A stretch of 64,000 bases of DNA. Source: Paludibacteraceae bacterium. GTDB lineage: Bacteria; Bacteroidota; Bacteroidia; Bacteroidales; Paludibacteraceae. Each line of letters opens with the position of its first letter. Positions within the stretch are counted from its first letter, which is position 1. The notes under the pieces are model-generated. The model had not been told where the DNA came from, did not search any database, and saw only the letters and a list, made by a program, of their open reading frames with translations. A program made the position numbers and the translations under genes. The stretch is from NCBI GenBank assembly GCA_017551025.1, contig JAFZNG010000014.1, positions 44,799 to 108,798 of the forward strand, read 5' to 3'. Positions 790 through 63,815 of the stretch are shown piece after piece.

Positions 790-1150
790 GAGCTTCTTCC
801 CGTATATCTTCCGGTAGCGAGATACGTCGTAGCTGCAGGCTGCGGCACCAACCGGGTATGTCCGCTTCGCGGAGTGTCTCGAATACCTCGCGCATCATCT
901 GATGCTGCGCCGGCGTGAAATCCTCCGGCGGTGTATCGGCCAGTTGGTCGAGTTCTTCGTCGTCGTAATAGACGATCTCGGCATTGGTTTGCAAGAGGGT
1001 TTCGCGCTCGCAGACCAGGTGTTCGCCGCAGCAACCGTCAGGACGGCTATCGGCTTTTGGCTCTTGGTTCTTGGCTTTCTGGCGCTCACGTATCTCCGTG
1101 AGCACCAGCACCACAATCGCCAGTACTATGAATAGTAGTAGAGGAATCAT
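752..1150 (-). CDS. small single-pass membrane protein, unknown function
   Basis: 132 residues that I do not recognise by function. It starts with a hydrophobic segment (about residues 2-18) and then a soluble, acidic tail with a CCGEHLVCE cluster at about residues 40-48 that could bind metal or form disulfides. Its ATG overlaps the parE stop by 4 bases (ATGA), so the two are probably translated together. Residues 24-33 are encoded by a heptamer array (1053-1080), giving a [14 protein letters not shown] linker between the membrane segment and the Cys cluster. The 3' end overlaps the CPBP protease gene tail to tail. Confidence 0.7.
1053..1080. repeat. in-frame heptamer array
   Basis: Four heptamers of the type GCTCTTG (gcttttg, gctcttg, gttcttg, gctttct) inside the coding sequence at 752-1150. 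Nearly the same array occurs in the glycosyltransferase gene at 58427-58468, read in the same coding direction. Confidence 0.85.
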
Positions 1151-3051
1151 TCTTCCACTCTATCTTCTTCGATCACCAGGTTGTCGATGATGAACTGCTG
1201 GCGTTCGGTGGTGTTTTTGCCCATGTAGTAGGCGAGCAGTTCCTTGACGGCATCTTCCTTACGCAGGCTGACTTGGTCGAGACGTATCTCGCCGCCGATG
1301 AAGCCCTTGAATTCCTCGGGGGATATCTCACCGAGTCCTTTGAATCGTGTGATCTCGGGATTCTTGACTTCGGCAAGGGCTTTGAGTCGTTCGTCCTCGG
1401 AGTAGCAGTAGCGTATCTCTTGCTTGTTCTTGACGCGGAAGAGCGGGGTCTGCAGGATATATACGTGGCCTTTCTTGACCAGGTCGGGGAAGAACTGGAG
1501 GAAGAAGGTGAGCATCAAGAGGCGAATATGCATACCATCTACATCGGCATCGGTAGCGATGATGACCTTGTTGTAACGCAATTCGTCGAGGCCGTCCTCG
1601 ATATTGAGGGCCGATTGCAGGCAGTTGAACTCTTCGTTCTCATAGACCACCTGCTTGGTCAGTCCGTAGCAGTTGAGCGGCTTACCGCGCAGCGAGAAGA
1701 CGGCTTGGGTGCGTACGTCGCGGCTCTTGGTAATAGAGCCGGAAGCGGAGAGTCCCTCCGTGATGAAGATACAGGTCTCCTGGCGCAGGTCGTCGTCGGC
1801 ATTCTTGGCGGAGCGCACGGGTTTGGGGTCGTTGAAGTGGACCTGACAGTCGCGCAGCTTGGGGTTGTTGAGCAGGTTCTTCTTAGCGCGTTCGCGTGCG
1901 GCTTTCGTGACACCGGCGATGGCTTTGCGCTCTTTCTCCGAGTCCTGGATCTTCTGCAGCATGATCTCTACGGTCTGCGGATTGCGGTGGAGGTAGTTGT
2001 CGAGTTGCTGCTTGACGAAGTCGTTGACGAATTTATTGACGCTCACGCCGCCGGTGGGGCTCATATCTTTCGATCCGAGCTTGACCTTGGTTTGCGATTC
2101 GAAGACGGGTTCCTCTACGTTGATGGCGATAGCACCTACCACGCCGTTGCGGATGTCGGCCAGTTCCTGATTCTTGTTGAAGAACTCCTTGATGGTACGT
2201 CCGATAGCCTCTTTGTAAGCGGCTTGGTGGGTACCGCCCTGGATGGTATGCTGGCCGTTGACGAAGGAGAAATACTCATCGCCGTTTTGGTCGGTATGGG
2301 TGAGGGCGATCTCGATATCTTCGCCTACGATATGGATGATCGGATAGAGCGGATTGACCGTCATGTTCTCGGTCAGCAGGTCGAGCAGGCCGTTTCGGCT
2401 GATAAATTTCTTGCCGTTATAGACGAGCGTGAGCCCGGTGTTGAGGTATGCGTAGTTGCGGAGCAGTTCTTCGATATAGTCGTCGCGGAACTGATAGTTT
2501 TCGAATAGTCCTTTCGAGTTGTCGGGAACAAATTCGATAATAGTGCCTCGTTTCTCATTGCCGCTGTAGTCGAGTATGCCGGTGTCGCTGGTCAGTTTGC
2601 CCTCGGAGAACTCGGCCTTGCGGGTCTTGCCCTCGCGGAAGGACTCCACGGAGAAGTAGCTGGAGAGCGCATTGACAGCTTTGGTACCGACACCGTTCAG
2701 GCCGACGGATTTCTTGAAGGCCTTGCTGTCGTACTTACCGCCGGTGTTGAGCACGCTGACCACTTCGACGAGTTTGCCCAAGGGGATGCCTCGTCCGTAG
2801 TCTCGCACGCGCACTCGTCCGTCGGCTACGGTCACCTCGATCACCTTGCCTTCGCCCATGCGGTACTCGTCGATCGAGTTGTCGATACTCTCCTTGATGA
2901 GCACGTATATACCGTCGTCGGAGTGTGTGCCGTCGCCGAGTTTACCGATATACATACCCGGTCTGCGCCGGATATGTTCCATGTCGTCCAAGTGGATGAT
3001 ATTTTCGTCACCGTATTCGGTAGCTGTCTGCAGTACTTGCTCTTCTGCCAT
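1147..3051 (-). CDS. parE: DNA topoisomerase IV subunit B (type IIA topoisomerase ATPase subunit)
   Basis: GHKL ATPase and Toprim subunit of a type IIA topoisomerase, which acts with ParC on supercoils and chromosome unlinking. Visible features: the N-terminal RRRPGMYIG motif, the [12 protein letters not shown]-binding motif, GRGIP, the [14 protein letters not shown] loop, and the Toprim residues EGLSASG and DADVDGMHI; the C-terminus keeps RFKGLGE. At 634 residues it is short like ParE/GyrB without insertions. I chose the ATG at 3051; a TTG nine codons upstream lies inside the -7 promoter element and cannot be in the mRNA. parC is not in the window. GyrB is the alternative, but this type usually pairs with ParC in Bacteroidales. 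Confidence 0.92.
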
Positions 3052-3075
3052 ATTACGCCAAATTAAAATCGGCTG

Positions 3076-3107
3076 CAAAATTACAAAAAAAAAATGACAT
3101 ACACAAA
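3076..3107 (-). promoter_or_regulatory. promoter of parE
   Basis: On the minus strand, -33 TTTG (3104-3107), 20-base spacer, -7 TAATTTTG (3076-3083). The -33 lies in the centre of the palindrome at 3099-3116. Confidence 0.8.
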
Positions 3108-3116
3108 TGTGTATGC
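3099..3116. other. palindrome around the parE -33 element
   Basis: CATACAC, loop AAAT, GTGTATG. On the plus strand a run of seven T follows shortly, so it resembles a terminator hairpin; on the minus strand its loop is the -33 element of parE. Confidence 0.6.
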
Positions 3117-3152
3117 GAGATTTTTTTCGCCATGAAATATTCTTGTCGTTTT

Positions 3153-3212
3153 AAAATCACGGGATATATACTAAAGTATATATAGGTATGGGTGGGATAC
3201 GTGATTGACAGG
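3153..3212. repeat. dispersed ~60-base repeat, copy 1
   Basis: Begins AAAATCACGGG, contains the hairpin ATATATAC / GTATATAT, then a GGGTGGGATACG stretch and GATTGAC. A second copy with a few substitutions and single-base indels is at 15258-15318 in the same orientation. Both lie in spacers without genes. The rest of the 3079-3433 spacer holds the parE and mdh promoters. Confidence 0.8.
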
Positions 3213-62780: not shown

Positions 62781-63694
62781 CAGCCGTTGATTTTCTCCAT
62801 GATACGTGTTAGCATATATAGCCAGTAGGCCGGTCGGCCGAACTCCTCTTCTTCGCGCCAGGCCCGCATGGCTCGTTCGCGTCCCTCGGGCGTGACGGCC
62901 GGTTGATGAATGGCACGCCAATGGTAACCGCAAGCCAGCACGCGCTCCGGCCAACTGAGTCGCAACCGGCGGTTCATCCGGTCGTAGATGGCATGATCCT
63001 GCTCCATGTTCCGCCCAAGGCTCTCTGCTGAGCCCGACACTTTATGCGGGTGCTGGCGAAAACTGTTCATCTCCTTAGCCAGGTAACCTACCGTTCCCTG
63101 CATCGCTATCTCGATCCAGAACAACCGGTCGCCGCTGGCGGGGTACTTCTCCACCTCCCGCATATCTACCTGCATTGCCGCATCGCGACGGAAGACCACG
63201 GCGCTGGCATTGCATACATAGCTGTAGCCCAGTAGGTAACGACGCACAAACACTTCGCCCGCCATCAGGAAGTCGTGTTGCCATATGCCGGTGGTGGAAG
63301 TCAGCAAAGGATACCCCAACGTATCGATCTTACGACTATGGCAGAAAGCCATCACAGCGCCTGAGTTATCCAGTCCCTGCACCAGTTGCGAGAGCATCTC
63401 CGGCGCAGCTAGATCGTCGCTCTCGGCAATCCATACGTAGTCGCCCGTCGCTTCCTGTAGACCGCGTTCCCACTGACGGAAGGTGTTGCCCGAATTGCGG
63501 TCGTTCACCAGCAGCGTCTTCACTTCCGGCCGCTTGGCATATTCTTGCAAAATAGCAACGCTCTCATCCGTAGAAGCATCATCCAGGAGGATAATTTCCT
63601 TCTGAGGATAATCCTGCGCGAAGATACTATCCAGCCGCTCACGCAAATACCTTGCGTGGTTATAGTTAGGAACTATGATGCTTACTTTTTTCAC
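62780..63694 (-). CDS. glycosyltransferase family 2
   Basis: 304 residues from the GTG at 63694 (VKKVSIIVPNYNHARYLRERL). DDASTDES, WIAESDDLA (DxD-like) and FRRDAAM, with a C-terminal helical region. The frame runs upstream to 63736, but that part lies within the promoter, so the GTG is taken. First gene of the six-gene glycan operon. Confidence 0.88.
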   Translation of the reverse strand: MKKVSIIVPNYNHARYLRERLDSIFAQDYPQKEIILLDDASTDESVAILQEYAKRPEVKTLLVNDRNSGNTFRQWERGLQEATGDYVWIAESDDLAAPEMLSQLVQGLDNSGAVMAFCHSRKIDTLGYPLLTSTTGIWQHDFLMAGEVFVRRYLLGYSYVCNASAVVFRRDAAMQVDMREVEKYPASGDRLFWIEIAMQGTVGYLAKEMNSFRQHPHKVSGSAESLGRNMEQDHAIYDRMNRRLRLSWPERVLACGYHWRAIHQPAVTPEGRERAMRAWREEEEFGRPAYWLYMLTRIMEKING

Positions 63695-63713
63695 TTGCGT
63701 ACAAACTAGCGTG

Positions 63714-63745
63714 CAAAGGTACAAAAAAAAACGCACATACGCAAA
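63714..63745 (-). promoter_or_regulatory. promoter of the glycan operon
   Basis: -33 TTTG (63742-63745) with CGTATGTG, 20-base spacer of T, -7 TACCTTTG (63714-63721). The -33 is in the loop of the hairpin at 63731-63757. Confidence 0.85.
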
Positions 63746-63757
63746 TTTATGTGCGTT
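63731..63757. terminator. terminator hairpin overlapping the glycan promoter
   Basis: ACGCACATA (63731-63739) pairs with TATGTGCGT (63749-63757), A-run left, T-run right. It can end the minus-strand gene to the right while its loop and T-run are the next promoter's -33 and spacer. Confidence 0.75.
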
Positions 63758-63766
63758 TTTTTTACA

Positions 63767-63815
63767 TTAGCCTCCAGCCTTTCGCCTTTAGCCGTTACTT
63801 AGCCATTAGCCGTTC
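63767..63815. repeat. heptamer array at the end of the right-edge gene
   Basis: Seven degenerate units: ttagcct, ccagcct, ttcgcct, ttagccg, ttactta, gccatta, gccgttc. The sixth contains the stop codon of the gene at 63806. Confidence 0.8.

Follow-up and report, generated by a model that had tools for sequence, protein, structure and literature searches.

Short arrays with a constant seven-base period and changing units in a Paludibacteraceae genome, some of them in frame inside core genes

Cyanobacterial heptanucleotide repeats go by the name STRR, and the dispersed Rickettsia palindromic elements, long palindromes of about 100 bases or more, lie in frame in protein genes. Heptamer repeats have been noted in bacteria since at least 2007, when their over-representation was reported according to the available text of PMC4692102, without an agreed cause. 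The same text describes the repeats GGGAATC and GGGGA(C/T)T in Xanthomonas and Nostoc, ties their preference for four units to G-quadruplexes and gives their sites as rather stable. TAACTGA direct repeats of two to six copies occur in Beggiatoaceae, cyanobacteria and some Bacteroidetes, beside starts, across stops and in some open reading frames (ORFs); in the available text of PMC4679880 their ORF insertions mostly affect hypothetical proteins or the ends of proteins, and other heptamers are noted in Bacteroidetes. The present study concerns a 64,000-nucleotide stretch of a Paludibacteraceae genome (assembly GCA_017551025.1, contig JAFZNG010000014.1, positions 44,799 to 108,798 of the forward strand; hereafter the window), which carries a dispersed family of short arrays that keep a period of seven bases while their unit changes. 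A constant period, a changing unit and a link to heptanucleotide repeats already described had been proposed from the letters of the window (the original prediction), and our analysis supports all three.

The seven-base periodicity stands out from every neighbouring lag. To detect arrays, the sequence was compared with itself at set lags (match +1, mismatch -2, segment score at least 10). The window holds 13 segments at lag 7 against a mean of 0.1 in eight third-order shuffles; lags 4, 5, 6 and 8 give none, lags 9, 10, 11 and 12 give 1, 2, 1 and 1, and the 10 segments at lag 14 are an echo of lag 7. Many period-7 rows are also listed independently by Tandem Repeats Finder. Our sample of the same genome comprises the window and 20 further stretches (462.8 kb of a 1.94-Mb draft in 36 contigs, 95% complete), and each of the 21 carries arrays, dispersed and with several words. 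It yields 122 arrays at lag 7 and one in the shuffle (135 at a score of at least 9, 105 at a score of at least 12), compared with 19, 18, 15, 10, 5, 3, 1 and 0 at control lags 8, 9, 12, 11, 10, 6, 5 and 13, so the predicted excess of lag 7 over the neighbouring lags is real. Eighty Bacteroidota loci (1.48 Mb) give 56 arrays at lag 7 and 18, 19, 23 and 11 at lags 6, 8, 9 and 10. Per 100 kb, there are 26 arrays in this genome, 40 and 19 in the genus members G015 and G006, and one in the near relative G002; these and all other between-species comparisons rest on one genome per species. Codon or AT bias as the cause is ruled out by the lack of the signal in third-order shuffles, by its scarcity in G002 and by the absence of any lag-7 array in 150 kb of Escherichia coli. 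Fourteen of the 20 sites originally listed in the window are clear, with lag-7 scores of 9-24 (1053, 7137, 10431, 14949, 31376, 33542, 34468, 34934, 36222, 42312, 44698, 45471, 56791 and 58427), a score of 9 or above being reached by none of about 1,066 60-base segments of one shuffled sequence. Three are marginal (6911, 63767 and 40133, the last showing better at lag 14), and 29691, 42785 and 60275 do not rise above chance at lag 7, 60275 having a lag-14 pair.

The units form a small, lineage-specific vocabulary. They had been said to differ widely, which is half right: there are many words, but the 122 arrays use only 38 of them (rotations and strands merged), where 1,000 draws of random intergenic heptamers give a mean of 113 and a minimum of 104. 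The commonest word, AAAAATT (AATTAAA-type), makes up 46 of the 122 arrays, against 4 of the 83 found across six near relatives (Fisher p = 1.5e-8), and with AAAAATT left out the word identity between array pairs is 0.029 against 0.0013 expected. Other words lead elsewhere, namely AATAGCC and AAAGTTG in G015, AAATCAT in G006 and AAAAATC in G003. Among arrays of other words than AAAAATT, those of G015 use words of our genome in 20 of 43 cases (chance 4%), and those of five other relatives in 6 of 36. A generating process acting instead of the copying of one element, as first suggested, is therefore not supported as stated. Pure local slippage does not predict a vocabulary of this kind; the word set looks inherited or copied, and a mechanism is still needed for the period itself. 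A common positional grammar (four conserved positions, then variable-conserved-variable) performed well in pooled families but failed array by array, and was rejected; two variable positions lie 1, 2 and 3 apart in 15, 10 and 13 arrays of this genome and in 12, 11 and 13 of the genus.

Arrays had been predicted inside genes as well as between them, and this is confirmed, but the prediction missed what they are there. As read from the alignments of five core genes with arrays (RluD, PepD, dxs, gltX and aroC), the in-frame arrays are insertions, mostly in loops of species-variable length. By position, 50 of the 135 arrays lie inside predicted genes, 47 over a gene end and 38 between genes, as placed by a simple codon-usage caller with which some predicted genes are surely wrong. 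A stricter rule places 44 arrays inside long coding ORFs, which are open by construction and measured from stop to stop, so that a few of the 44 may precede the true start. With perfect units a stop would arise in 15 of these arrays, and with the array inverted in 23; the degenerate units thus keep the frame open, and several in-frame AATTAAA arrays have one AATGAAA unit where TAA would be in frame. Read in all three frames, the tracts give housekeeping enzymes peptide repeats of seven residues, KLKIKNE being one example. Across the genome sample, genes with arrays inside include dxs (four arrays), aroC (three), rho, gltX and the GGGP synthase gene. In the window, each with its array in frame, they are the LD-carboxypeptidase gene at 6603-7496 (Peptidase_S66; AATTAAA-type array at 7138-7170, + strand, lag-7 score 20, peptide EIKNLKLKIKNC), the dipeptidase gene pepD at 9860-11311 (AATTCAA-type, 10432-10465, +, IQNSKLKIQNS), the GtrA-like gene at 14662-15156 on the - strand (PF04138 in translation; AAAGTTG-type, 14949-14981, -), the RluD-type pseudouridine synthase gene at 30992-32029 ((CCATACA)4.4, 31375-31405, +, SHTPYTIHHTP), queH at 34486-35088 (CCGCTCA-type, 34932-34961, +, RSPLTAHQSPL) and a family-2 glycosyltransferase gene (TATTGGC-type, 58429-58457, -, KANSQELIANN).

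Alignment with orthologues shows how these loops vary between species. Compared with each of 13 genus orthologues (70-82% identity), the array loop of RluD has 1-8 additional residues; it is also longer than in a solved RluD (7bl5). Four loops vary in dxs, whose nearest named relative among the matches listed, at 72% identity, is that of a Paludibacteraceae metagenome-assembled genome (MAG; Bacteroidales) obtained from roe deer caecum. Loop 4 could be read in 22 of 24 sequences and has AATTCAA units in our genome. One pair of species has AAGTC units there, a second pair has GAGAGGC and GGATATC units, and the rest show other repeats or just a short plain sequence; by eye, some species also have longer non-heptamer repeats in loops 1, 3 and 4. 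The aroC, gltX and pepD loops behave in the same way in alignments, the pepD array having a perfect hairpin near its 5' end and lying in a variable loop among 20 orthologues. Together, 85 orthologues of dxs, aroC, gltX and pepD from other species hold 29 lag-7 arrays, spread over 21 of them, and 0, 1, 6, 1, 1, 3 and 1 arrays at control lags 5, 6, 8, 9, 10, 11 and 13. The porX alignment has no array inside the gene. The junction behind porX carries a periodic array in 4 of 19 sequences: GTGAAAG units in our genome, AACTGAC in G006 and, by eye, period-8 arrays in the other two. The same loop or junction thus carries different words in different species.

Array length and copy number cluster around a preferred value. 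A length of nearly always 28 or 35 bases, as originally given, is roughly right, the 105 arrays with a score of at least 12 having a median of 31 and an interquartile range of 27-33. At this score the median span is 31 bases in the genus and 31.5 in other Bacteroidota, with a median of 4.4 copies in our genome and the genus and 4.5 in other Bacteroidota; the length histogram dips at 21-24 and has a hump at 25-35 bases, without a fall-off with length. Other periods have words of their own, namely 8, 9 and 11 in our genome and 11 in many relatives. Period-8 arrays have about 4.2 copies, period-9 arrays 3.0-3.4, and period-11 arrays 4.1 in the genus and 2.9 in our genome; a number of about four holds for periods 7 and 8 and, less surely, beyond them.

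Some observations on these other periods stand on their own. Fourteen period-11 arrays of varied words (score at least 12) occur in 11 of 20 stretches from relatives (L053, L055, L058-L061, L063, L064, L066, L071 and L072), and period 11 outnumbers period 7 by 10 to 6 in ten pooled genus stretches. Stretches L037, L041, L047, L048 and L050 of our genome hold period-8 arrays whose words, CGTTATAA and CTAGTCGA among them, are near-palindromic, and 13 period-8 arrays of this genome have a median length of 34. Two stretches from other Bacteroidota MAGs (L117:7442-7576 and L116:2281-2381) carry period-8 arrays of several words (CGGGATAA, TTCCATTA) that resemble the heptamer arrays.

We tentatively favour an explanation in which the arrays are high-turnover tandem-repeat insertions that enter a site with several units at a time, probably as copies of other arrays, and are afterwards filtered by selection. 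Each array would arrive with several units at once, because single 7-base steps would disrupt the reading frame of dxs, gltX or aroC. Unit similarity along arrays is flat (0.903, 0.871, 0.888 and 0.903 at lags 7, 14, 21 and 28), which fits one event and not serial duplication of neighbours. Indel loops make up 4,400 of 45,897 residues (9.6%) in dxs, aroC, gltX, RluD and porX but hold 370 of the 461 residues coded by arrays. The excess of period 7, the small word sets, the unequal density in near relatives, the in-frame insertions kept open by degenerate units and the humped array length also speak for this explanation. The inserted DNA would be copied from arrays elsewhere in the genome, with an ectopic template during replication or repair; it is the word sets that point to copying, which would in turn explain their lineage specificity. 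Selection would then purge gene-breaking arrays, and no host function would be needed.

Several results weigh against this explanation. Copying gained no significant support when tested directly (46 array pairs share a non-periodic 20-mer, against 33.9 and a maximum of 63 under the unit-order null), and the identical or near-identical arrays found at separate places (L033:13667 and L047:19834) and twice within rho (L042:4052 and 4178) do not go beyond that null. In or just before genes of relatives, 21 of 30 arrays have words outside the sampled set of our genome. The unit similarity at lag 7 is inflated because the arrays were selected on that lag. The share of array residues in indel loops is a partly circular figure and an upper view, since the arrays themselves create gaps. 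The heptamer arrays of two cyanobacterial Cyanothece strains differ mostly by 7-nt steps, as slippage gives, according to the available text of PMC4679880. Finally, with one genome per species, the insertion events are inferred and none was seen directly.

In-place replication slippage biased to seven bases is a serious rival, which we regard as possible but somewhat doubtful. A local heptamer would grow through a preference of the polymerase for 7-base loops, gain and loss would balance at four to five units, decay would follow, and words would differ between lineages through mutation bias. A polymerase-set preference of this kind has been proposed for bacterial heptamer repeats, as cited in the available text of PMC4692102. 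The dominance of period 7 in our genome, in several genus relatives and in the 80 Bacteroidota loci agrees with it, some genomes show lesser peaks at 8 and 11 in keeping with preferred loop sizes, a balance of copy number could likewise yield the humped length distribution, and the 7-nt indels between the Cyanothece strains are what it expects. On the other hand, the words are few and lineage-specific, stepwise growth would break essential reading frames, neighbouring units are no more alike than distant ones, and MutS is present. Loss of mismatch repair was rejected as a cause, as MutS_V was found in 24 of 25 genus genomes, ours included.

Selected functional elements, such as translation-initiation or all-frame stop elements at junctions or sites for a repeat-reading protein, are an unlikely explanation, although some observations favour them. 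Among arrays that touch a gap, 44 of 64 have an edge no more than 5 bases from a predicted gene end, where random placement in the same gaps gives 40%. Of the 46 AATTAAA arrays, 10 have a hairpin stem with a score of at least 6 on the 5' flank of the AATTAAA strand (shuffled flanks 0.55) and 2 have one on the other flank (shuffled flanks 0.9); among 203 period-7 arrays of our genome and five relatives, 22 have a hairpin on the purine-rich side and 13 on the opposite side, as raw counts without shuffles. AATTAAA arrays mostly have four to five AATT cores and hardly any G, the core varying less than the spacer, and a small AGTTGAG family is one way round at 5 of 5 junctions. Against a function stands the main family, whose AATTAAA arrays between co-directed genes run one way in 17 cases and the other way in 18, and this lack of orientation preference also disfavours a promoter or terminator role. 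A site with an array in one species may hold a different word, or no array, in a sister species, the near relative G002 is almost without arrays, and in-frame arrays inside genes suit no junction function. AATTAAA arrays start in phase 6 or 0 in 38 of 46 cases and end in phase 2-4 in 41 of 46; such fixed ends, considered as the mark of a mobile unit, were set aside as probably a by-product of the steady AATT core and looser spacer.

Writing by a templated enzyme (reverse transcriptase or telomerase-like), an example named in the original prediction, would suit the constant period and the roughly constant copy number but is very improbable: dozens of words would require dozens of templates, the RVT_1 profile has no match in our genome (95% complete) and matches in 5 of 25 genus genomes, and its carriers include both the dense G015 and the nearly array-free G002. 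A REP-type transposase (Y1_Tnp) as mover was also rejected, with matches in 11 of 25 genomes, 9 over the cut-off, and none in the dense G015 and G006. An assembly or binning artefact, suggested by the nearest named relatives found being MAGs, is just as improbable, since reading frames continue across the arrays, several separate assemblies have arrays in the same genes (21 of 85 orthologues), and heptamer arrays also occur in records without a MAG label, such as Mucilaginibacter sp. OK268.

The other clear arrays of the window lie between genes or over gene ends. A GGCTCTT-type array (1044-1074, lag-7 score 12) stands between a + strand gene ending at 789 and a gyrase/topoisomerase-B-like gene at 1147-3078 (-), and an ATTTTCA-type array (44700-44724) between gldJ and the dihydropteroate synthase gene. 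Stop codons are spanned by a GTGAAAG-type array at the end of porX, which reaches the 5' end of the next ORF (33542-33570, +), by AAAATTG-type (34468-34495, +) and AAATTGA-type (42313-42334, +, lag-7 score 9) arrays at the stops of two endonuclease/exonuclease/phosphatase genes (34489 and 42332, the second gene with PF19580), and by an AAATTGA-type array at the dihydropteroate synthase stop (45492), 4 bases before cdaA (45472-45497, +). An AATTAAA-type array (36222-36253, -) occupies nearly the whole gap of 36219-36250 from the birA stop to the start of a dTDP-glucose dehydratase gene, and an AAATTAA-type array (56791-56815, +) between ychF and a Na/Ca exchanger gene extends into the exchanger ATG. 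Genes of the window include porX, gldB and gldJ, which assign it to Bacteroidota, and Rfam over the window gave one tRNA and no other match at the gathering score.

Other repeats were also observed. A second dispersed short repeat around GACCGCTTCGCTGAAAGAACAAAGAC lies at gene junctions (window 6557-6596 and L047:5502-5550), and by eye a GACCGCTTCGCTGAAAGAACAAAGAC-like sequence fills dxs loops in some relatives. Directly upstream of a serine palmitoyltransferase-like gene is a 30-base tandem repeat (4459-4526; 2.3 copies, 97% match). A 1,538-residue ORF with IgGFc_binding and PKD domains (16703-21319), itself without a PADLOC match, lies in a low-GC stretch (0.40-0.43), and clusters of period 9-11 repeats (15232-15751 and 24681-24744) flank this stretch on both sides.

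The arrays look like genomic litter that changes fast, with a seven-base rhythm still to be explained, and they represent an unusual source of protein loops in housekeeping enzymes of a gut Bacteroidales genome. The genus offers natural replicates, with shared loops and junctions in over twenty species, often with a different word in each; the origin is thereby testable, as a single multi-unit event against stepwise slippage and as copied against local words. More speculatively, and in our view unlikely, a general bacterial DNA-synthesis or repair reaction might write a short word about four times over in a single event, with period 7 strongly preferred (less often 8 or 11) and largely independent of the word, steadily supplying in-frame loop insertions to core proteins. 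If so, the preference for four units in Xanthomonas, which has been credited to G-quadruplexes, would be a mark of that reaction.

The arrays can be compared with several described systems. In-frame insertion in protein genes, seen here in RluD, dxs, aroC, gltX and pepD, is shared with the Rickettsia palindromic elements, which are long palindromes, whereas ours are short tandem arrays with a median of 31 bases. TAACTGA repeats resemble ours in their heptamer unit, few copies, position at starts and stops and occasional presence in ORFs, but one word dominates in their main host in the available text of PMC4679880, and that word is missing from our 135 arrays. GGGAATC-type repeats share the four-unit preference (median 4.4 copies here); in the available text of PMC4692102, however, they comprise one G-rich word per group at rather stable sites, while our commonest word is AATTAAA, GGG or CCC occurs in the words of 13 of 135 arrays, and no array has the word GGGAATC. 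AT-rich arrays with hardly any G show about the same number of units, so quadruplexes are not the general reason for four units and that account is weakened. The literature searched, with subscription papers mostly outside it, holds no report of in-frame core-gene heptamer arrays with between-species word turnover; heptamer repeats are already known in bacteria, and the turnover inside core genes is new as far as that literature extends. With bacterial heptanucleotide repeats in general our arrays share period 7, dispersal, a mostly intergenic position and several words per genome, and they differ in lying also in frame in core genes and in the turnover of words at sites shared between species of the genus.

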